Position numbers and translations under genes: made by a program
Notes under the pieces: model-generated
The model's input: only the letters and a program-made list of their open reading frames with translations
What the model was told of the DNA's origin: nothing
Database searches by the model: none
DNA from: a virus
Direction: 5' to 3' (one strand)
DNA: 20,248 nucleotides
IMG/VR virus record: IMGVR_UViG_3300037584_001215
Span: 1-20,248 of that record
Part shown: one piece after another, positions 6,940-19,622 of the stretch
Layout of the letters: every line of letters starts with the position of its first letter
Position numbering within the stretch: position 1 is the stretch's first letter

Positions 6940-8097
6940 ATGGAAATTAAAGTAAGAGAACTAACTGATGTTCAAGAAAAATCAGTTCAAGAAGTCGAGC
7001 AAGAACTTTTAAATAAGCATGAAGCTCAACAAGAATTAAAGTTTGACGATACTAAAGGAAAAGAGTCAGAACAAAAACCAGAGCCTCCAGAGGCAGAGGT
7101 AAAGACCGAAGAGGCGCAAGATACAGTAAGCGAAGAAAAGCCTGAGCCTACTGAAAAAGAAATAACTTCTCCTGAATTATCAGAAGAAGACGTTCTTTCA
7201 TTTATTGGAAAAAGATACGGTAAGGAAATTAATTCACTAGATGAATTAACTGCAACACGAGATGAAGCTGAAAAGCTTCCAGAAGATATTGCAGCTTACT
7301 TTAAGTATAAAAAAGAAACAGGAAGGAGCATTGAGGATTTTGTAAAGTTACAAAAAGACTATACCGATGTTAATCCTGAGACTTTGGTAAGAGAGTATTT
7401 GACAGTTACTGAAGAAGGTTTAGACCCTGAAGACATAGACTCACTAATGGAGGACTATGTATATGACGAGGAACTAGATGACGAATCAGTAATCAAGAAG
7501 ACTAAATTAGCAAAGAAAAAGATTATTGCTAAAGCGAAAAGATTCTTTAAAGAGCAGCAAGAACAATACAAGTTACCCCTTGAGTCAAGGGAAAACTCGT
7601 TCACAAATTCTGAAGAATATCAAGCTTATAAGCAATATGTGAATACGGCTCAAAGTCAGCAGGAAGAAGCTACTCGCAAAAGCGAATGGTTTGTCAAAAA
7701 AAGTGATGAATTGTTCAACAGTGAATTTAAAGGTTTTAAGTTCAATTTAGATGAAAGCGATATATACTTTACACCTGGGAGTGCTTCTGAATTAAAAAAA
7801 GCTCAAGAGACGCCAATGAATTTTGTAAATAAGTTTATTGACGATAAAGGACTTTTAAATGATCCAGAAGGATACCACAGATCTTTAGCTATAGCTATGA
7901 ATCCCGACAAGTTTGCTCAGTTTTTTTATGAGCAAGGGAAGTCAAGTGCCACTGAGGATGTAATGCGCAAAACAAAAAACATTAACATGTCTGAGCGTAA
8001 TATACCAGAGACAGTTGCTAAATCAGGGTTCCAAGTTAAATCAGTTTCATCGCCTTCGAGCAATGGGCTAAAAATTAGAAGTATAAAGAGAACTTAA
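6940..8097 (+). CDS. Scaffold-like acidic protein
   Basis: A 385-aa protein, almost certainly the head scaffold judging by position (between portal and major capsid protein) and composition. Residues 1-85 are dominated by Glu, Lys, Gln and Pro and probably disordered (EQKPEPPEAEVKTEE, EEKPEPTEKE). The middle (about 85-250) is charged and helical (IKKTKLAKKKIIAKAKRFF around 186-204, followed by EQQEQYK). The C-terminus is Ser-rich then basic (SSPSSNGLKIRSIKRT). A basic C-terminal tail that contacts the capsid shell is usual for scaffolds such as that of P22. No protease motif is visible here or in the neighbours, so whether this scaffold is cleaved or exits whole is unknown. Its leader contains AAATCTAATC and AATCAAATG, shared with other starts. 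A 23-base gap precedes the capsid gene. Confidence 0.72.
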   Translation: MEIKVRELTDVQEKSVQEVEQELLNKHEAQQELKFDDTKGKESEQKPEPPEAEVKTEEAQDTVSEEKPEPTEKEITSPELSEEDVLSFIGKRYGKEINSLDELTATRDEAEKLPEDIAAYFKYKKETGRSIEDFVKLQKDYTDVNPETLVREYLTVTEEGLDPEDIDSLMEDYVYDEELDDESVIKKTKLAKKKIIAKAKRFFKEQQEQYKLPLESRENSFTNSEEYQAYKQYVNTAQSQQEEATRKSEWFVKKSDELFNSEFKGFKFNLDESDIYFTPGSASELKKAQETPMNFVNKFIDDKGLLNDPEGYHRSLAIAMNPDKFAQFFYEQGKSSATEDVMRKTKNINMSERNIPETVAKSGFQVKSVSSPSSNGLKIRSIKRT

Positions 8098-9584: not shown

Positions 9585-9601
9585 ATAATAAGTGTTTTTT
9601 C

Positions 9602-9627
9602 GGGGGGTCTTAGGATCCCCTTTTTTT
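9602..9627 (+). terminator. Intrinsic terminator after the capsid gene
   Basis: GGGGGTC (9603-9609), a 4-base loop TTAG, and GATCCCC (9614-9620) form a 7-bp stem with one G-U pair, followed by seven T (9621-9627). It lies 18 bases after the capsid stop. There is no clear promoter between it and the next gene at 9649, so partial read-through or attenuation is likely: high capsid mRNA and lower downstream mRNA. Confidence 0.85.
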
Positions 9628-9648
9628 ATAAAATTTAAATCTAATCAA

Positions 9649-10401
9649 ATGAAAACTACTACTAAATACGTAGATAAAATCTACAAGCTAACGCGCGAGA
9701 CTGCGCCCCTTTCCTTAATTTTAGCATCAAGACATACACAGAGATTTCCTCTATTGTGGTTTGATGAAGATACTGGAACAAATAAAGCGTTGCGCTATGC
9801 ACGAAACCAAAACTCTCCATTTCAAGAAGACCAAGACGATAATGCAATATTAGAGCCTATAGTTTTTGAAAATGGGTTTTTAACAGTTCGTAAAGAAAAC
9901 CAAGTGTTACAAAAATTCTTAGAATACCATCCTGGTAAAGGTCGGGTTTATGTGGAGGTTGACAAAGCTAAAGATGCTGCACAAGTTGTAAAAGACTTAA
10001 ATGCAGAAGTAGATGCACTAATAGAAGCGCGTCAACTTACTGTAGACCAAGTGGAAAACATTGGTCGAGTATTGTTTCAGCAAGATGTAACAACCGTAAC
10101 TACTGCAGAGCTTAGAAGAGACATATTAGTATTTGCAAAAAATCAACCTAAAGATTTTTTATTACTATTAAAAGATCCTGCATTAAAGTTAAATGCTGAA
10201 ATACAATTATTTTTTGATAAAAAGATTTTACAGTTTAGGAATAATAACAAGGAGGTGTGGTTTAATACACCCTCTAATAAAAAGAAAATGTTAAATGTTC
10301 CTTATCAAGAGGACCCTATTTATATAATATCTTCATTTTTTCAAAGTGATGAAGGGTTAGAAGCATTAAAGCATTTATCGGCTCTAGCGAAAAATATGTA
10401 A
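9649..10401 (+). CDS. Unknown virion-region protein, 250 aa
   Basis: Not recognised as a named family. The frame opens further upstream at a GTG (9592), but that would place the start inside the terminator hairpin. The ATG at 9649, with leader AAATCTAATCAAATG, is preferred. The N-terminal half is compact (ASRHTQRFPLLWFDEDTGTN at 27-46, RYARNQNSPFQEDQDD, ILEPIVFENGFLTVRKENQ, FLEYHPGKG). The middle is helical and charged (DKAKDAAQVVKDLNAEVDAL). The C-terminal half has TTAELRRDILVFAKNQPKDF and a small domain ending in ALKHLSALAKNM. Its place right after the capsid gene suggests a head or head-tail role, or a regulator of assembly, but this is inference only. No TM segment or signal peptide. It probably depends on read-through of the terminator upstream. 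Confidence 0.8.
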   Translation: MKTTTKYVDKIYKLTRETAPLSLILASRHTQRFPLLWFDEDTGTNKALRYARNQNSPFQEDQDDNAILEPIVFENGFLTVRKENQVLQKFLEYHPGKGRVYVEVDKAKDAAQVVKDLNAEVDALIEARQLTVDQVENIGRVLFQQDVTTVTTAELRRDILVFAKNQPKDFLLLLKDPALKLNAEIQLFFDKKILQFRNNNKEVWFNTPSNKKKMLNVPYQEDPIYIISSFFQSDEGLEALKHLSALAKNM

Positions 10402-12068: not shown

Positions 12069-12983
12069 ATGGCATACATAAATCAGGAAAAATATTACAC
12101 TAATGATAACATAAACCCCACTAATGAAAATTGGGGTTCTTATCAATATGTAAGTCTCGCAGATATAGTTACAAACTTTTTGTTAATGTACAATGGAAAC
12201 CACTCTCTTATTAATAACGAGGAAAGGTATAAGATATTGTTTCACGCCAAAAGAGGTGTTCAAGAACTAAATTATGATGCATTCAAAGAAATTAAATCTT
12301 TACAGCTTACAGTTTATTCTGATTTAAGATTTGTTTTACCCTCCGATTTTGTTAATTGGGTCCGTGTATCTCTATTTAAAGACAACACTATATTTCCTCT
12401 TGTTGAAAACATTCAAGTTCAATCTGCTCTCTCGTATGTGCAATCCGCAACTGCAACGTTTACATATGACGGCAGCGGTAATGTTAATACCAAAACCTCC
12501 TCATTAGATACAGCTAGACAAGACGGTGCTCTAAACAGTATCTATCTCAATCAAGCAAGGATGGAGGGAGTGGATATGCCTCCTTTTAATGAAGATTATT
12601 ACGACACATACATAGGAGCTCGTTATGGACTAAATACTGAAACAGCAAACATGAATCCTACTTTTACTATTGATAAAAAAGCAGGTGTAATAAATTTTGA
12701 TTCTACTATGGCTAATCAAGAATGTATTTTAGAATACATATCTGATGGTATGGAAAATGGAGACGATTCAAAAATAAGTGTGAATAAACTATTTGAAGAT
12801 TACATATACGCATATATAAAATATGCGTTATTAAATAATAAATTTGGTGTTCAAGAGTACATAATAAACAGAGCACGAAAAGATAAATCAGCGTTATTAA
12901 GAAATGCAAAAATCCGATTAAGTGATATTCATCCTGGTAGGTTGTTAATGAACTTAAGAGGAGAGAATAAGTGGATTAAGTAA
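12069..12983 (+). CDS. T7 gp11-type head-tail adaptor / tail tubular protein A
   Basis: A 304-aa protein likely to form the ring between portal and tail nozzle. The N-terminal region has WGSYQYVSLADIVTNFLLMY (22-41), NNEERYKILFHAKRGVQELN (49-68), then SDLRFVLPSDFVNWVRVSLF (about 84-103), the pattern of adaptor proteins in crAss-like and marine Bacteroidota podoviruses. A variable middle (about 120-200) precedes NPTFTIDKKAGVINFDSTMA, ILEYISDGMENGD, and a helical C-terminus (LFEDYIYAYIKYALLNNKFG, RARKDKSALLRNAKIRL) ending GENKWIK. The 'F-LP-DFVNW' helix-strand block and the gene's place directly before the stabilization protein support the call. It starts 2 bases after the previous stop, and its TAA shares a base with the next ATG (TAATG). 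Confidence 0.7.
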   Translation: MAYINQEKYYTNDNINPTNENWGSYQYVSLADIVTNFLLMYNGNHSLINNEERYKILFHAKRGVQELNYDAFKEIKSLQLTVYSDLRFVLPSDFVNWVRVSLFKDNTIFPLVENIQVQSALSYVQSATATFTYDGSGNVNTKTSSLDTARQDGALNSIYLNQARMEGVDMPPFNEDYYDTYIGARYGLNTETANMNPTFTIDKKAGVINFDSTMANQECILEYISDGMENGDDSKISVNKLFEDYIYAYIKYALLNNKFGVQEYIINRARKDKSALLRNAKIRLSDIHPGRLLMNLRGENKWIK

Positions 12984-14029
12984 TGGCAAAATCGCAAAGA
13001 AATTTTATTGCAGGCCGTATGAATAAAAGCCTTGATGAAAGGCTTATACCTAATGGCGAATATGAAGATGCTTTAAATGTAAGGCTTGGTTCTACTGAGG
13101 CATCCGAAATAGGTTCAGTAGAAAACACCAAAGGTAACTCTCAACTTAGCGCGCTATTCTTTTTAGATAAACAAGCGTTAAGTCCTAAAGCTAGATGTAT
13201 CGGGGCTTTTCAAGATAGTGCAAATGAAACCATATATTGGTTTGTGCATGATCCAAATTTTACTTTGGCCGATACAGGTAAATGTGATATGATTGTATCT
13301 TTTGATACTAAAACAGCGCAAGTAACATATCATGTAGTTAGTACGGATGACGGCAGCGGTATAAATACAACTCTTAATTTTAATCCACAGAATCTAATAA
13401 CAGGTATAAATATTATTGGTGAATTACTTTTTTTTACTGACAACTTAAATGCACCTAGATTTATAAACGTTAATCGTTCTTACAAAGAGCCATTGCTAGA
13501 TGGTAATCCTCCAGGGCCTATTGCAGCTTTGTGGAAATTTAAGGCTGAATCATTATTAGTGGCAGGCACAGAGTTTATAGGATTTCATCGAGGTACGTTG
13601 TTGGGTTGTCCAAATCCATTGTCAGGTTTTGGTCAAGGTGTAAGCCCAAGTTTAAATCAAATACCTTTACCTGGTGTAGATTGTTATACAGATAATTTGG
13701 GGTTGCCTATTACAAAAGGTTATGGTATACAAGGTTCCAACTTTGCTCAAGGCTTAGCACTCACTCAATTTTCAACTAACACAAATTCGGGAACATCTAC
13801 AATTAATTTAATAAATGCTGACACTATTTCAAATCCAGGCGCATCCGCCATAGCTGGATCAATAAAAGGTGATGATGGTTCTACAGGAACTTTTACGGCA
13901 AACTACACGCCTTCAATTTTTTCATATACAGATGGGAACGGTGATACACAAAATCCTGAATCGGGGGGCACTGTAATAATAAACGGATTAACTTTAACGG
14001 ATCAAGTAACTTATACATTAACTAGTTAA
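12983..14029 (+). CDS. Tail stabilization protein, N-terminal part (split gene), 348 aa
   Basis: The opening, RNFIAGRMNKSLDERLIPNG (5-24) then EYEDALNVRLGSTEASEIGS (25-44) and VENTKGN, is the hallmark of the large tail 'stabilization' (nozzle-type) protein of crAss-like phages. FVHDPN, MIVSFDTKTAQVTYHVV and LLFFTDNLNAPRFINVNRSY (about 150-169) continue that fold. Normally the protein continues directly into the region encoded by the next gene. Here residues about 186-348 instead form a Gly/Ser/Thr/Asn-rich tail (TNTNSGTSTINLINADTISN, ESGGTVIINGLTLTDQVTYT) that looks like a beta domain, and the frame ends in TAA. FKAESLLV (186-193) repeats as FTAESLLV at residues 8-15 of the next protein. Both halves may assemble together in the tail. 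Confidence 0.75.
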   Translation: MAKSQRNFIAGRMNKSLDERLIPNGEYEDALNVRLGSTEASEIGSVENTKGNSQLSALFFLDKQALSPKARCIGAFQDSANETIYWFVHDPNFTLADTGKCDMIVSFDTKTAQVTYHVVSTDDGSGINTTLNFNPQNLITGINIIGELLFFTDNLNAPRFINVNRSYKEPLLDGNPPGPIAALWKFKAESLLVAGTEFIGFHRGTLLGCPNPLSGFGQGVSPSLNQIPLPGVDCYTDNLGLPITKGYGIQGSNFAQGLALTQFSTNTNSGTSTINLINADTISNPGASAIAGSIKGDDGSTGTFTANYTPSIFSYTDGNGDTQNPESGGTVIINGLTLTDQVTYTLTS

Positions 14030-14030
14030 C

Positions 14031-17000
14031 ATGGCTGCATATATAGATCAATTTACCGCAGAATCTTTACTGGTTATAAAAAAGCCTCCGATAGAAGCGC
14101 CTACTATTGTACCATTTAAAAATAATGGCGACAATACTTATTTACAAGACAGGTTCATTTGTTTTGCGTATCGTTATCAATATGCAGACGGAGAGTATTC
14201 GGCAACTTCACAGTTTAGTGACCCTGCATTTATTGCTGGTAATTTTCAATTTGACATAAGCACATTTTTAAATGAGGGAATGCTCAATGTAATGAATGCG
14301 GTTACTTTATCTTATAATACAGGAGGTCCATTAGTCAAAGACGTTGAGATATTATTTAAAGAAATGGACAACCCTGTAATTAGGGTTGTAGAAAAACTAA
14401 ATAAATTAGATTTAGGATTAGCTGACAATGATATAGCTACATTTGTTTTTGACAATCAAAAAATATTTACTGTATTACCTGAGACTGAGATTCTTAGGTT
14501 GTACGATAACGTTCCTCTAAAAGCTCAAGCTCAAACAATAATGGGTAACCGTTTGTTTTACGGTAACTATGTTGAGTCATATAATTTAGTTGATAAATTC
14601 AACGATGCAGTTCAATTTAATTATAGCACTACTTTGGAAACAAGTGAGGTGGGTGCTGAAACACTACCATTTTCTCAAGCAGATGCACAGTACGTAATTG
14701 ATGGATGGATTAATAAACCAAATGCAAGATTTAATTTTGATTTAGAAGGAACTAAGCTAGTAAAAGGAGCCTCTATAGAGTTTGATATATCTATTTTGCA
14801 CAATTCATTTAGCGGTAACACTCCTTTTCCGACAGATACTACCACTGATAAAAATCTTAATTTCACATACATACTACAGCAAGACTTTAGCTCAGTATTT
14901 AATTTAGCCACAGATCCTGATTTTGTAGCAAAGATTGGTAGTGCAACAACTATTTCAACAGTAGCAAACTCTTGTACAGGCTCTACCTTTACAGACGTTT
15001 TTAATTGTGAAATACCAAATCAACTAGATGCGTATTATAAAAAAGCAAGTGGTATAAGTGCTGTAGATCAGCCTATTCAAATATATACTAGCGCGAACAG
15101 TACAGAGATAGGCTTACAGTTTCCTGCAATGCAGTTTGTAGATAATATAGGTGTTCCAACTCAAACATTTTATGAATACTATGAGGTAACAGCTGGTACC
15201 GTTTCTTATAGAGAGACTACAAACAACTATAGTTTACATAGTAATCGTGGATATCAGATTGGTATTGTTTATATGGACGAGTTTGGCAGATCGTCTACTG
15301 CACAAATTAGTCAGTTTGATACGGTTAGCGTACCATGCTCCAACTCAAATCTTATAAATAAAATACAAGTAACCATTCCTGGCGGTGGAATTATACCCGC
15401 ACAAATAGCTCCATATTGGGCAGAGAGATACAAGTTTGTAATAAAAGCTGACAGAGATAATTACGAAACCATCTACACAAACATATTCTATGAGGAGCCC
15501 GATGGTAATGCAGTATACTTTTTATTAGAAGGGGAAAATGCACAGAAGGTAAACGCAGGTGATAGGCTTATTGTAAAACGTGACAATGATGGATCATTAT
15601 CAACTTGTGTATTTACAACTGTTTTAGAAAAAGAAGTTAAAGAAAAAAACTTTTTAACTATTAAGGATCCTTTAGTGGCCAACGCAACTATAGAGATTCC
15701 TTCTGGGCCATACATGAAGTTAAACCCTAATAACTTTTCGGCTACCACTAATGAGGATCCTGGTGGAAACTTTGTTTCATTTCCAGCAAAAGTTTGGACT
15801 GCAAAACAAGCCAACTATTATCCTGTTGTAAGTTTCCCTGTTACAGTATCAAATGGAGGATTGACATCACCTTTAACGGACGAGGTTTACACTATCCCCG
15901 CAGGTAGTCGCATAAAAATTACATACAGTAATACTCGAAGAGGACGAAGCACAGCGTGTGAAGAAAGATCATATAAATTATTATTAAATCTTACAGCAAC
16001 TAGAGAATTCTCAGATTTTGAAGATTTTTTTATAAATGATAATGTAGCATCTTTACTTAATAATGGTGAGTCATGTAACGGATGGCCAAGAGGAACTTGT
16101 AGTTTTCCTGATACAACCAACAGTTTTAATAGCACCGCATACACTACATCAAACGTAAACGATGTTCCTCCGTTTGTTGTAAATGTAGGTAATTCAATTA
16201 TTGATGCAGCGGAGACAGTAAACTATTGGAGGTTTTATAAAAATACGGCTACTGGAAAACAATATTTAATGGCAACAGGAACAAGCGCTTGTGGATCTGC
16301 CGATAATGCCACGTCTCGTGTAAGTTTACAAATTGAAGTTATACGAGCAAGTTCCACTTGCGTATTTGAAACAATACCAACAGATGCTTCTCCAGATATA
16401 TGGTATGAAAACGATTTGTCTTTTGATATAGATTCACTAGGGCAACACACAGGTAATGTTCAGAACCAAGTTGTTAACTTTCAAAACGCTGCAAACGTAA
16501 CACCGCAAGATGCAATAATTGATACAGGCTTTTATAACTGTATAGCATTCGGCGATGGTATTGAAAGCTTTAAGATAAGAGATTCTATTGTAGGCAAGCC
16601 TATGAATTTTGGTAATAGAGTGTTTACAACATCGGCTCAGATTTATAAAAGAGCCCACAGATTTGCAGACCTTACGTATAGCGGTGTTTTTAACGATGAG
16701 TCGAACGTAAATAAATTAAATGAGTTCAACCTAGGCTTAGCTAATTTTAAGCCATTAGAAGACATCTATGGCCCTATACAGAAGCTTCATGCCAGAAGAA
16801 CGGACATACTTACATTTCAAGAAGATAAAATATCATACGTATTACAGGGCAAAGATATACTAACTGACGCAGGAGGAGGAGGTACTTTGACTTCTGTTCC
16901 TACAGTTTTGGGTCAGCAGATAGCAAGAGACGAAGAGTTCGGCATCAGTAATAACCCTGAAAGTTTTGCGGTATATGGAAACGACAAGTTTTTTACTGAT

Positions 17001-19622
17001 GCAAAAAGAGGTGCAGTATTACAATTAAAAGGTGGTGAAGTTGGTCCTGAAGTCTTAGCGGTTATATCAGAAGTGGGAATGCGAGGATGGTTTAGAGATT
17101 TCTTTATTGATACCATAGGCAATCAAAAACTTGGTGGATATGACCCATACATGAATGAGTATGTATTAGCAAGCAACGGTGAAAATATTGCTGGCTTTAC
17201 AAACTGTTTACCTTGTGGTGTCACAGAAAACGTTGTAGTAAATCCTGCGGCGGAAACTATTTATTGTGTTAATGTAACAGAAAACGTAGGCAACGTAGCT
17301 ATTAATTATGTTATTCCGAACTCTTATGAAGATGATATATTTTCTGAATCAGGCACAGGAAACGAACAGTTAGTTACAGAACAAGGTATCGACATAGGAA
17401 CTGAAGGCACTACGACTGGTGTGGGCTACACAATAAAAGCTATTTATAACAATGTGGAACACACAACAGGATTAGTATATGTTAGCGGAACATTAACAAT
17501 AAATAAAAATAGTGTCGAAGCAACTCAAGTTACTTTAATTGTTACTACTAATTCGTTGGTCTCTGACACCATACAAATAACAACTGAGTGCCCAATACAA
17601 AATATTTTGACTATATACAATATAGCTTTAACAAGCGCAAGTGATGCAGGCTTATCAATACACAATCAATACTCGTGGACTGACAATATATTTAGTTCAC
17701 CGCTCCACTCTAGCTTAGTAACTTTTGCTAGCTCTACAAACAACCCAATTGTATCACAATACGAAAGTGTCTCTGGAGTTATAGGAACTGGTGTAATACC
17801 AAACCAAGGTGCGTTAGTTAACATGATAAGCAACAAAATACTCAGTGATAACTTTAACTTTAACACCTCACTAAATAAGTTTAGATATTTAAGAACAAAC
17901 ACTTTATATCCAAACGACACTTCTTCTATTAATTTATTATTAGGCGCATCAGACGAAGCAACACCAATAGTTACTTCAGGAAATAAATTCTCTGCGGAAT
18001 TCGCTATGCCAAACAATGTAGGGGATATACTTTATATGATTTGGGATTACAGACAACCAACAGAAATATTCTTAAACCAAGGAGTATCTGCATACGATGC
18101 ATGTTGTAATGGTCAACCTCTTGGTCCAACAATAAATTGTAACACGGTACAAGGCGGCGGTTATGCTTATCCAGATATAAGAAATGTAGATCTCGGAACA
18201 GGTACGGGAACAGTAGAACTGTCTTATGCTGCATTAGGAGAGCCTGATAAATTTATTGTAGAGTTTGATGGTGTTGAGGTTATTAATACAGGTTATAGAG
18301 GCAATTCGTCACAACAAGGAGATTTAAATGCGGCTCTTGCAAACTTAGGACAGCCAGCAGAAACAATTCAAGGCGTAGGCACGGGCACAGCATCGTTTAC
18401 AAAATCTACCGCTACAACAACGGCAACAGTAAAAGTTTTTGCACCAATTTCTAATAGCACATGGCAGTATACTTTAGGGTGCCCTGGTGGAGTAGCCACT
18501 CCTACGCCAACACCTACTGTGACTCCTACGCCAACACCTACTGTGACTCCATACGTACCTACGCCAACTCCGACTGCTACACCTACTCCGACACCTACCG
18601 TAACGCCTTTAGCCAACACGTTACCGTTTTATCCTAGCAATACTGGAGGCGGAACAAATCCATCTTCAGGGTATTCAACAGCTTCAGGCGCTTGCAACGG
18701 ACAAGTCGCTTCAAATTTCCAAACTGCATATTTTACGCAAAACGTAACATCTTGGCAAGACGTGGTAAATAACAATTTAATTATTTATACTACTCCTACT
18801 TTTAACGTTCCTTACAATGGGTTTGACACGTATTTTAAAACCGCATATCCACCAAATACAGGACAAACATTTTTGTTGGGTGGTGATCCTAGCGGTAATT
18901 ACGGACAAGTGTCTAATTTATCAACATGTTCACCGCCGCCTACACCTACAGCTAATCCATCTCCAGTAGCTTGGTATTTAAATGGCGGTGAGCAAAATGG
19001 ATTTACTAACAAATCAGATTCGTGTAATTATAATGTAGCTAGCGGAGCGTTTATGTACTTGTTCTACAGCCCAGGTGGAGGCTCGCCAGTTAATATACAG
19101 AGCACGGCAGATTTAGATTTTGCTTATTCTAATAACTATGCGGTTATTGCATATACTGATGCGTTACAACAAAACACCTTTAATGGCAGCGATGCAGGAA
19201 CAGGACTACCTATGTATTATGGATCAGCATTACAAACGTCTGGTGCACCAGGATTAAAATTTTATATAGGTGCAAATGGAATCGTTAACTTTATCGGATC
19301 TAGTTATTACGAGACATGCTTGCAAGAATTTACAATGACGGCGTATAATTATTTTTGGACGACATCATCTAATGCATGCACAAATGGAAGCTCCTCACCA
19401 ACACAAACATTTTATCATACAGGTAACACAAGTTGTTTATCTTTGAATGATATTGTTTATGTTGATACGGCTAAAAAACAAAAACTTAGCGATGTTGCGC
19501 CAATTTCAGGAGGAACAGGATCAGGGCTTTATTGGTATCAGCCTTCTCCTTGCGGCTCAGGAAATGGACAATCTGCTAGAATAAATATAAATTCAACGGT
19601 AAATAATCTATCTAATTGTTAA
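14031..19622 (+). CDS. Giant tail stabilization protein with receptor-binding-like C-terminus, 1863 aa
   Basis: Residues 1-1050 form the main body of the crAss-type stabilization protein: FTAESLLVIKKPPIEAPTIV (8-27), FICFAYRYQYADGEYSATSQ (43-62), YDNVPLKAQAQTIMGNRLFY (158-177), ARRTDILTFQEDKISYVLQG (about 922-941) and GWFRDFFIDT...LGGYDPYMNEYVLA (about 1019-1044). Residues about 1058-1190 resemble an Ig-like domain, and about 1191-1370 are of unknown fold. Residues about 1389-1484 are a beta domain with PDKFIVEFDGVEVINTGYRG and TATTTATVKVFAP. Residues 1490-1526 are a Thr-Pro linker. Residues about 1544-1863 contain three Cys-bounded modules (for example TFYHTG, DIVYVDTAKKQ, GLYWYQ, ending SNC). 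Likely a tail nozzle fused to an extended host-contact arm. The fusion is unusual and the enzyme content, if any, is not visible. Confidence 0.85.
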   Translation: MAAYIDQFTAESLLVIKKPPIEAPTIVPFKNNGDNTYLQDRFICFAYRYQYADGEYSATSQFSDPAFIAGNFQFDISTFLNEGMLNVMNAVTLSYNTGGPLVKDVEILFKEMDNPVIRVVEKLNKLDLGLADNDIATFVFDNQKIFTVLPETEILRLYDNVPLKAQAQTIMGNRLFYGNYVESYNLVDKFNDAVQFNYSTTLETSEVGAETLPFSQADAQYVIDGWINKPNARFNFDLEGTKLVKGASIEFDISILHNSFSGNTPFPTDTTTDKNLNFTYILQQDFSSVFNLATDPDFVAKIGSATTISTVANSCTGSTFTDVFNCEIPNQLDAYYKKASGISAVDQPIQIYTSANSTEIGLQFPAMQFVDNIGVPTQTFYEYYEVTAGTVSYRETTNNYSLHSNRGYQIGIVYMDEFGRSSTAQISQFDTVSVPCSNSNLINKIQVTIPGGGIIPAQIAPYWAERYKFVIKADRDNYETIYTNIFYEEPDGNAVYFLLEGENAQKVNAGDRLIVKRDNDGSLSTCVFTTVLEKEVKEKNFLTIKDPLVANATIEIPSGPYMKLNPNNFSATTNEDPGGNFVSFPAKVWTAKQANYYPVVSFPVTVSNGGLTSPLTDEVYTIPAGSRIKITYSNTRRGRSTACEERSYKLLLNLTATREFSDFEDFFINDNVASLLNNGESCNGWPRGTCSFPDTTNSFNSTAYTTSNVNDVPPFVVNVGNSIIDAAETVNYWRFYKNTATGKQYLMATGTSACGSADNATSRVSLQIEVIRASSTCVFETIPTDASPDIWYENDLSFDIDSLGQHTGNVQNQVVNFQNAANVTPQDAIIDTGFYNCIAFGDGIESFKIRDSIVGKPMNFGNRVFTTSAQIYKRAHRFADLTYSGVFNDESNVNKLNEFNLGLANFKPLEDIYGPIQKLHARRTDILTFQEDKISYVLQGKDILTDAGGGGTLTSVPTVLGQQIARDEEFGISNNPESFAVYGNDKFFTDAKRGAVLQLKGGEVGPEVLAVISEVGMRGWFRDFFIDTIGNQKLGGYDPYMNEYVLASNGENIAGFTNCLPCGVTENVVVNPAAETIYCVNVTENVGNVAINYVIPNSYEDDIFSESGTGNEQLVTEQGIDIGTEGTTTGVGYTIKAIYNNVEHTTGLVYVSGTLTINKNSVEATQVTLIVTTNSLVSDTIQITTECPIQNILTIYNIALTSASDAGLSIHNQYSWTDNIFSSPLHSSLVTFASSTNNPIVSQYESVSGVIGTGVIPNQGALVNMISNKILSDNFNFNTSLNKFRYLRTNTLYPNDTSSINLLLGASDEATPIVTSGNKFSAEFAMPNNVGDILYMIWDYRQPTEIFLNQGVSAYDACCNGQPLGPTINCNTVQGGGYAYPDIRNVDLGTGTGTVELSYAALGEPDKFIVEFDGVEVINTGYRGNSSQQGDLNAALANLGQPAETIQGVGTGTASFTKSTATTTATVKVFAPISNSTWQYTLGCPGGVATPTPTPTVTPTPTPTVTPYVPTPTPTATPTPTPTVTPLANTLPFYPSNTGGGTNPSSGYSTASGACNGQVASNFQTAYFTQNVTSWQDVVNNNLIIYTTPTFNVPYNGFDTYFKTAYPPNTGQTFLLGGDPSGNYGQVSNLSTCSPPPTPTANPSPVAWYLNGGEQNGFTNKSDSCNYNVASGAFMYLFYSPGGGSPVNIQSTADLDFAYSNNYAVIAYTDALQQNTFNGSDAGTGLPMYYGSALQTSGAPGLKFYIGANGIVNFIGSSYYETCLQEFTMTAYNYFWTTSSNACTNGSSSPTQTFYHTGNTSCLSLNDIVYVDTAKKQKLSDVAPISGGTGSGLYWYQPSPCGSGNGQSARININSTVNNLSNC
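18498..18608 (+). repeat. Thr-Pro codon repeat (tandem 24-bp unit at 18501-18548)
   Basis: A low-complexity tract encoding alternating Pro with Thr, Val, Ala or Tyr (37 residues). Its start is a perfect 24-bp unit repeated twice (18501-18524 and 18525-18548, beginning CCTACGCCAACACC), then degenerate copies. It forms an extended linker between the beta domain and the terminal modules. Slippage could change its length in 24-bp, in-frame steps. Confidence 0.9.

Follow-up and report, generated by a model that had tools for sequence, protein, structure and literature searches.

The window, the whole 20,248-nucleotide stretch of viral DNA analyzed here, carries two adjacent genes that correspond to successive parts of a crassvirus muzzle protein, and all features described below lie on its + strand. 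The upstream gene (12983..14029) encodes P0001, a 348-aa protein composed of the conserved muzzle N-terminus and an inserted domain. The downstream gene (14031..19622) encodes P0002, an 1863-aa protein in which residues 5-1341 represent the remaining muzzle and residues 1342-1863 form a Pro/Thr-linked extension. The two ORFs occupy different frames with a 1-base gap between them, and the stop codon of the N gene and the start codon of the C gene form a TAA-C-ATG junction (14027..14033). P0001 comprises the muzzle N-terminal conserved part (residues 1-166; 12983..13480), a variable linker (13481..13528), and an inserted all-β domain of 166 aa (13529..14026). By homology, residues 1-166 would contain the ring-joining segment and the first propeller blades. 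A first octamer, FKAESLLV (13538..13561), opens the inserted domain, and a second, FTAESLLV (14052..14075), is a conserved family motif that opens the segment of P0002 equivalent to the IG1 domain.

The gene directly upstream of P0001 (12069-12983) matches PHROG 13977, a virion structural protein; the terminase, portal, and other structural genes of the window were likewise identified through PHROG matches only. Two further proteins amid the structural genes, encoded at 6940-8097 and 9592-10401, match only PHROGs of unknown function. At its distal end, P0002 runs ~520 residues past the muzzle family profile (18054-19619), with long PTPTPT linkers and further repeat-like modules; the C gene is shorter in related split phages, such as L012 (about 1497 codons).

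Profile searches place the two proteins on consecutive stretches of one family. P0001 residues 6-166 align with positions 3-153 of PHROG 14478, and P0002 residues 5-1341 align with positions 158-1362 (of 1474). Pfam crAss_MUZ, the crassvirus muzzle protein family, matches P0001 residues 4-167 with 34.1 bits against a cut-off of 27, and a Pfam search with P0002 alone gave no match. Taken together, P0001 and P0002 match the crAss_MUZ/PHROG 14478 family over most of its length, but as two ORFs in different frames and not as a single polypeptide, an arrangement found alike in 67 distinct relatives. Family membership is therefore claimed for the protein pair, as a split variant. The muzzle protein of the window is really divided into two polypeptides. 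The first-pass annotation had described one normally single-chain "stabilization protein", which we take to be the crassvirus muzzle protein, as now being two, and both the consecutive PHROG 14478 stretches and the single ORF in unsplit relatives bear this out. Its reading of the junction as two frames 1 base apart is confirmed, as is the Gly/Ser/Thr-rich stretch of 155 residues from the motif end to the stop. An insertion adding an extra β domain, which it had also suggested, is supported by an AlphaFold2 model, and the same split, which it had proposed to look for in related phages, occurs together with the domain in the 67 relatives.

Comparison with unsplit relatives defines the break site. 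Their single chain reads ...FTDDYNAPRFINIxRNYPNPIxxIDQxSAESLLVIKKPP... (in a looser consensus, INxxRNYPNPI), with a single AESLLV. In split relatives, the first protein contains ...FTDNLNAPRFINVNRSYKEPLL... and the second begins MAAYIDQFTAESLLVIKKPP; P0002-type proteins start M(A)xYIDQFxAESLLVIKKPP. The insert thus follows NPI and precedes IDQ, which leaves AESLLV to the second part alone. An N-part profile aligns to residues 7-150 of the crAss001 muzzle protein gp44 with an E-value of 0.0004 and a probability of only 36%. In gp44, IG1 is inserted between propeller blades 2 and 3 and spans residues 163-292 (PMC10172136). Since the gp44-equivalent N-part ends at residue 150 and IG1 begins at 163, the break falls at the propeller/IG1 domain boundary.

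The FKAESLLV and FTAESLLV octamers occupy the positions given by the first-pass annotation and, as it had noted, are identical at 7 of 8 residues with partly different codons. No second 7-of-8 match exists anywhere between P0001 and P0002; in 300 cases with shuffled proteins, such a match turned up at any position in 8 and never in the opening 30 residues of P0002. From this unusual likeness, the annotation had derived an old FxAESLLV duplication, with an insertion between the copies that divided the gene, a model that the relatives make very improbable. At the P0001 position, split relatives carry FKAGKSTI, FKAGEAVG, FKAEKVQV, FKAQKILV, FTAGFTNA, and FTSGQTNI, among others. The 7/8 pair match is restricted to the closest relatives of the window, does not exceed 5/8 elsewhere, and drops to 1/8 in L059 and L063. 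Conservation is limited to the P0002 copy, unsplit relatives have one AESLLV with the insert located upstream of that copy, and homologues of the domain in proteins unrelated to the muzzle also open F-x-A-G. Internal duplication was rejected on these grounds. The P0001 octamer is the variable first strand of the inserted domain, a strand with reasons of its own to begin F-K-A, and its likeness to the second motif arose late.

The distribution of the split was surveyed in viral contigs. A first scan with P0002 residues 1-490 as the query returned 80 contigs, which together with four named phages and the window comprise 41 split and 44 single-ORF cases. Later scans were performed with the domain and with the N-part, and all distinct N-part ORFs were then classed: 108 run on into the muzzle body without the domain, 67 stop after the domain, and 3 are of other kinds, the 108 and 67 being counts of related sequences and not of independent events. 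Among the distinct relatives classed (108 unsplit, 67 split), the domain occurs inside an unbroken muzzle chain in none. The three remaining ORFs are L021, which is split and lacks the domain, L020, with a frameshift within the domain, and L255, with an apparent frameshift in an unsplit muzzle. Relative to the window, the N-part is about 62-79% identical in split members at greater distance and about 56-64% identical in most of the unsplit relatives. Each of five longer split records (40-59 kb) contains one N-part and one domain. Every split example is a metagenomic contig, and neither an isolate nor a proteomic record came to light for any split phage.

In L021 (2169-2732), the N-part ends ...NGTSPN*, 20 bases 5' of the C gene, and the bases between the N-part and the C gene resemble the domain end in L020 (CTTATACCCT..TATAAACT), which suggests a secondary domain loss or an assembly variant. 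If the contig is correct, L021 is split without the domain, and the domain is therefore not required for the split state. A careful tree of the C-part, built from 33 sequences, needs two state changes, with the unsplit L064 joining the Pro/Thr-linker split lineage at moderate support; monophyly of the split sequences is not rejected (p-AU 0.33). One capture, one capture followed by reversion, or two captures are each possible origins on these sequences.

The inserted domain, ~160 aa long, was modeled by AlphaFold2 from a 34-sequence alignment as an all-β fold with a pLDDT of 95.5 and a pTM of 0.90. In a model of whole P0001, the domain is fairly confident and the muzzle N-part scores below 60; such low confidence may be what is expected of a fragment that needs its partners. 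The dN/dS of the domain is mostly about 0.1-0.3 across 14 sequence pairs, the near-identical L008/L009 pair being uninformative, and the domain is thus a constrained, translated part of the protein. PHROG and Pfam searches with the domain gave no useful match (best E 0.017, from one member only), none of the named phages searched contains it, and PDB sequence searches with P0001, P0002, A1, and A4 returned nothing useful. Foldseek found no match at E ≤ 0.001 for the domain alone against PDB and BFVD, and none with an E below 0.001 for whole P0001 against PDB. A second structural comparison of the domain reached Z scores of 3.0 at best, CBM35 and CBM6 chains included; the values for a CBM35/CBM6-like fold, 2.9 (2w46) and 2.4 (2cdp), are no higher than those of unrelated entries. 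This lack of a structural match does not make the fold new. The domain falls in no recognised binding family. The possibility that the domain is a copied muzzle segment was rejected, as it has no profile match to gp44.

The domain is also present in tail-region proteins unrelated to the muzzle. It lies C-terminally, after a Pro/Thr linker, in ~270-311-aa proteins (L130, L145, L152, L153, and L156), whose genes lie upstream of one with a weak tape-measure match and one for an XkdF-like protease. The muzzle N-part was not found in the L130 and L153 records, which may be fragments. In L150, the domain forms the C-terminus of a 977-aa protein, and in proteins of 350 and 589 aa (L204, L206-type), it is positioned near the N-terminus. 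The 589-aa protein of L206 (2938-4707) has a crAss_MUZ_C Pfam match further on, and a full-length unsplit muzzle is also present elsewhere in L206-related records. In the five records checked among those with the N-terminal kind of domain (L204, L207, L210, L211, and L221), a single long open frame of 1754-2169 codons encodes the muzzle. Ten records with unsplit muzzles, some of them fragments, yielded no domain; the same query was positive in 6/6 other records. In the split lineage of L059, L063, L070, and L149, a Pro/Thr- or Pro/Ser-rich linker connects the N-part to the domain. The simplest account of these arrangements would be the capture of the 3' end of a tail gene, comprising linker, domain, and stop codon. 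The transfer probably ran from another tail gene to the muzzle, the domain tree itself being unrooted and poorly resolved. The domain is best read as an adhesin-like module.

Individual pairs of contigs carry different domain versions between near-identical flanks, and the domain is therefore exchanged by recombination. Between L059 and L063, identity is 97-100% in nearly all 100-base flank bins and 76-85% across the domain, with a synonymous divergence of 0.58 in the domain versus 0.058 and 0.042 in the flanks. The L134/L137 pair differs over the first ~220 bases of the domain, the remainder of the domain and the flanks being identical; L129 and L202 share flanks of 92-94% identity and have domains on different branches. 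Diversity-generating mutagenesis was rejected for the L134/L137 pair, as the differences are not adenine-confined, extend to third positions and indels, and fall in a single tract. Across 59 close pairs, the mean identity of the domain is 0.922 versus 0.940, and the domain is the lower in 54% of pairs. Exchange is thus argued from individual pairs and is episodic rather than a constant hypervariation, given no general excess divergence. In L012 and L013, the N gene and domain are ~95% identical and the C gene is about 60-80% identical beyond 500 bases from its start, a strong divergence that indicates recombination near the start of the C gene, in about its first 550 bases.

Of 54 distinct junctions, 53 have a start codon at -1 to +6 nt from the stop. 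Close junctions are thus general in the clade and fit coupled translation, which had been proposed earlier for the window; the same spacing is ordinary between genes in the gene-dense region of the window. The N-part is conserved, single-copy in the five longer split records, and absent from P0002, which argues that the two chains would assemble into one muzzle.

These observations can be ordered into a proposed sequence of events. A ~160-aa all-β tail module would have been captured at the point where the N-terminal propeller part meets the first Ig-like domain, with a stop codon of its own that it brought along or retained. Translation of the remaining muzzle would then begin at a start codon a few bases downstream of that stop. 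Both chains, co-translated, would assemble into an ordinary muzzle with the new domain displayed on the tail tip. There, the domain would probably contact the host surface. Recombination exchanges the domain among phages, and this exchange, together with its position and modularity, raises the hypothesis that it may bind this surface. We consider it probable that a captured tail module with its own stop divides the muzzle into a co-assembling two-chain gate whose domain is swapped by recombination. A broader form of this proposal, put forward tentatively and at somewhat under an even chance, is that a hitherto undescribed, transferable all-β module with its own stop divides an essential tail-gate protein, gives rise to a stable two-chain muzzle, and serves as an exchangeable host-recognition cassette in crAss-like and unrelated phages.

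Three other explanations of the locus were weighed against module capture. Splicing or bypassing of the insert, by an intron, an intein, or ribosomal bypassing, would restore one chain; deleting the 514 bases that separate the two motif copies would bring the frames together, and the muzzle parts are otherwise collinear. However, the motif repeat is unconserved, the distance from stop to start ranges between -1 and +6, the insert shares the frame of the N-part and has a low dN/dS, and the domain is an ordinary terminal module of other proteins. An Rfam search of 13000-15000 yielded no intron family, only a chance-level SNORA33 match (24 bits against a gathering score of 74), by which a group I or II intron in the insert was rejected, and we give splicing or bypassing very little credence. 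Alternatively, P0001 could be an independent tail decoration protein, with P0002 alone representing a truncated muzzle. This is unlikely, although P0001 is encoded separately, its C-terminus has a fold of its own, and its muzzle N-part has no confident model in the isolated protein: the N-part stays conserved, only one is present per longer split record, and P0002 has no equivalent segment. Damaged inserts in two contigs (the L020 frameshift and the L021 loss) and the apparent frameshift in the unsplit L255 muzzle could point to a sequencing or assembly error or to a decaying gene, a probability that becomes negligible with 67 distinct split sequences from many samples sharing the same arrangement and a low dN/dS in the insert and on both sides of it.

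In crAss-like phages, the giant muzzle protein closes the tail tip as a conserved gate and presumably senses the host surface. The split occurs across a large set of such phages, uncultured and represented by metagenomic sequences, with module capture apparently behind it. A split muzzle was described nowhere in text searches of limited coverage, and this is weak evidence that the arrangement is new. A clade with a two-chain muzzle and a recombining domain at the break offers a natural cut point for studying gate assembly and opening. The unnamed tail-domain family represents a candidate host-range determinant, and the locus exemplifies how a gene can be divided through capture of a C-terminal module with neither part lost.

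Among known systems, the closest named relative is the structural protein UOF82506.1 of phage ctfjg026 (MW202828.1), with 56% identity to the P0001 N-part and 41.5% to P0002; unlike the window pair, it is one unsplit chain of 1551 aa, and the 60.85-kb ctfjg026 record has no copy of the inserted domain. The muzzle-like virion proteins of Cellulophaga phages, phi18:3 gp114, annotated from virion mass spectrometry, and phi38:1 gp97 match P0002 residues 8-1345 and 8-1060, respectively, at about 31-34% identity, but both are single chains without the inserted domain. The muzzle family is reported to vary in length in the crass and IG2 regions (PMC10172136). The T7 nozzle protein and gp44 have in common a ring-joining domain and a seven-bladed propeller, and the other three muzzle domains are distinct from the T7 nozzle protein (PMC10172136). 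With crAss001 gp44 (Pfam crAss_MUZ, PF25731), the window pair shares a homologous N-terminal part, and the C-terminal part of unsplit relatives has a weak profile match to gp44 residues 1049-1202. The domain added in the split muzzle has no detectable relation to gp44, and whereas gp44 is one chain of five domains, the chain here is broken before IG1.
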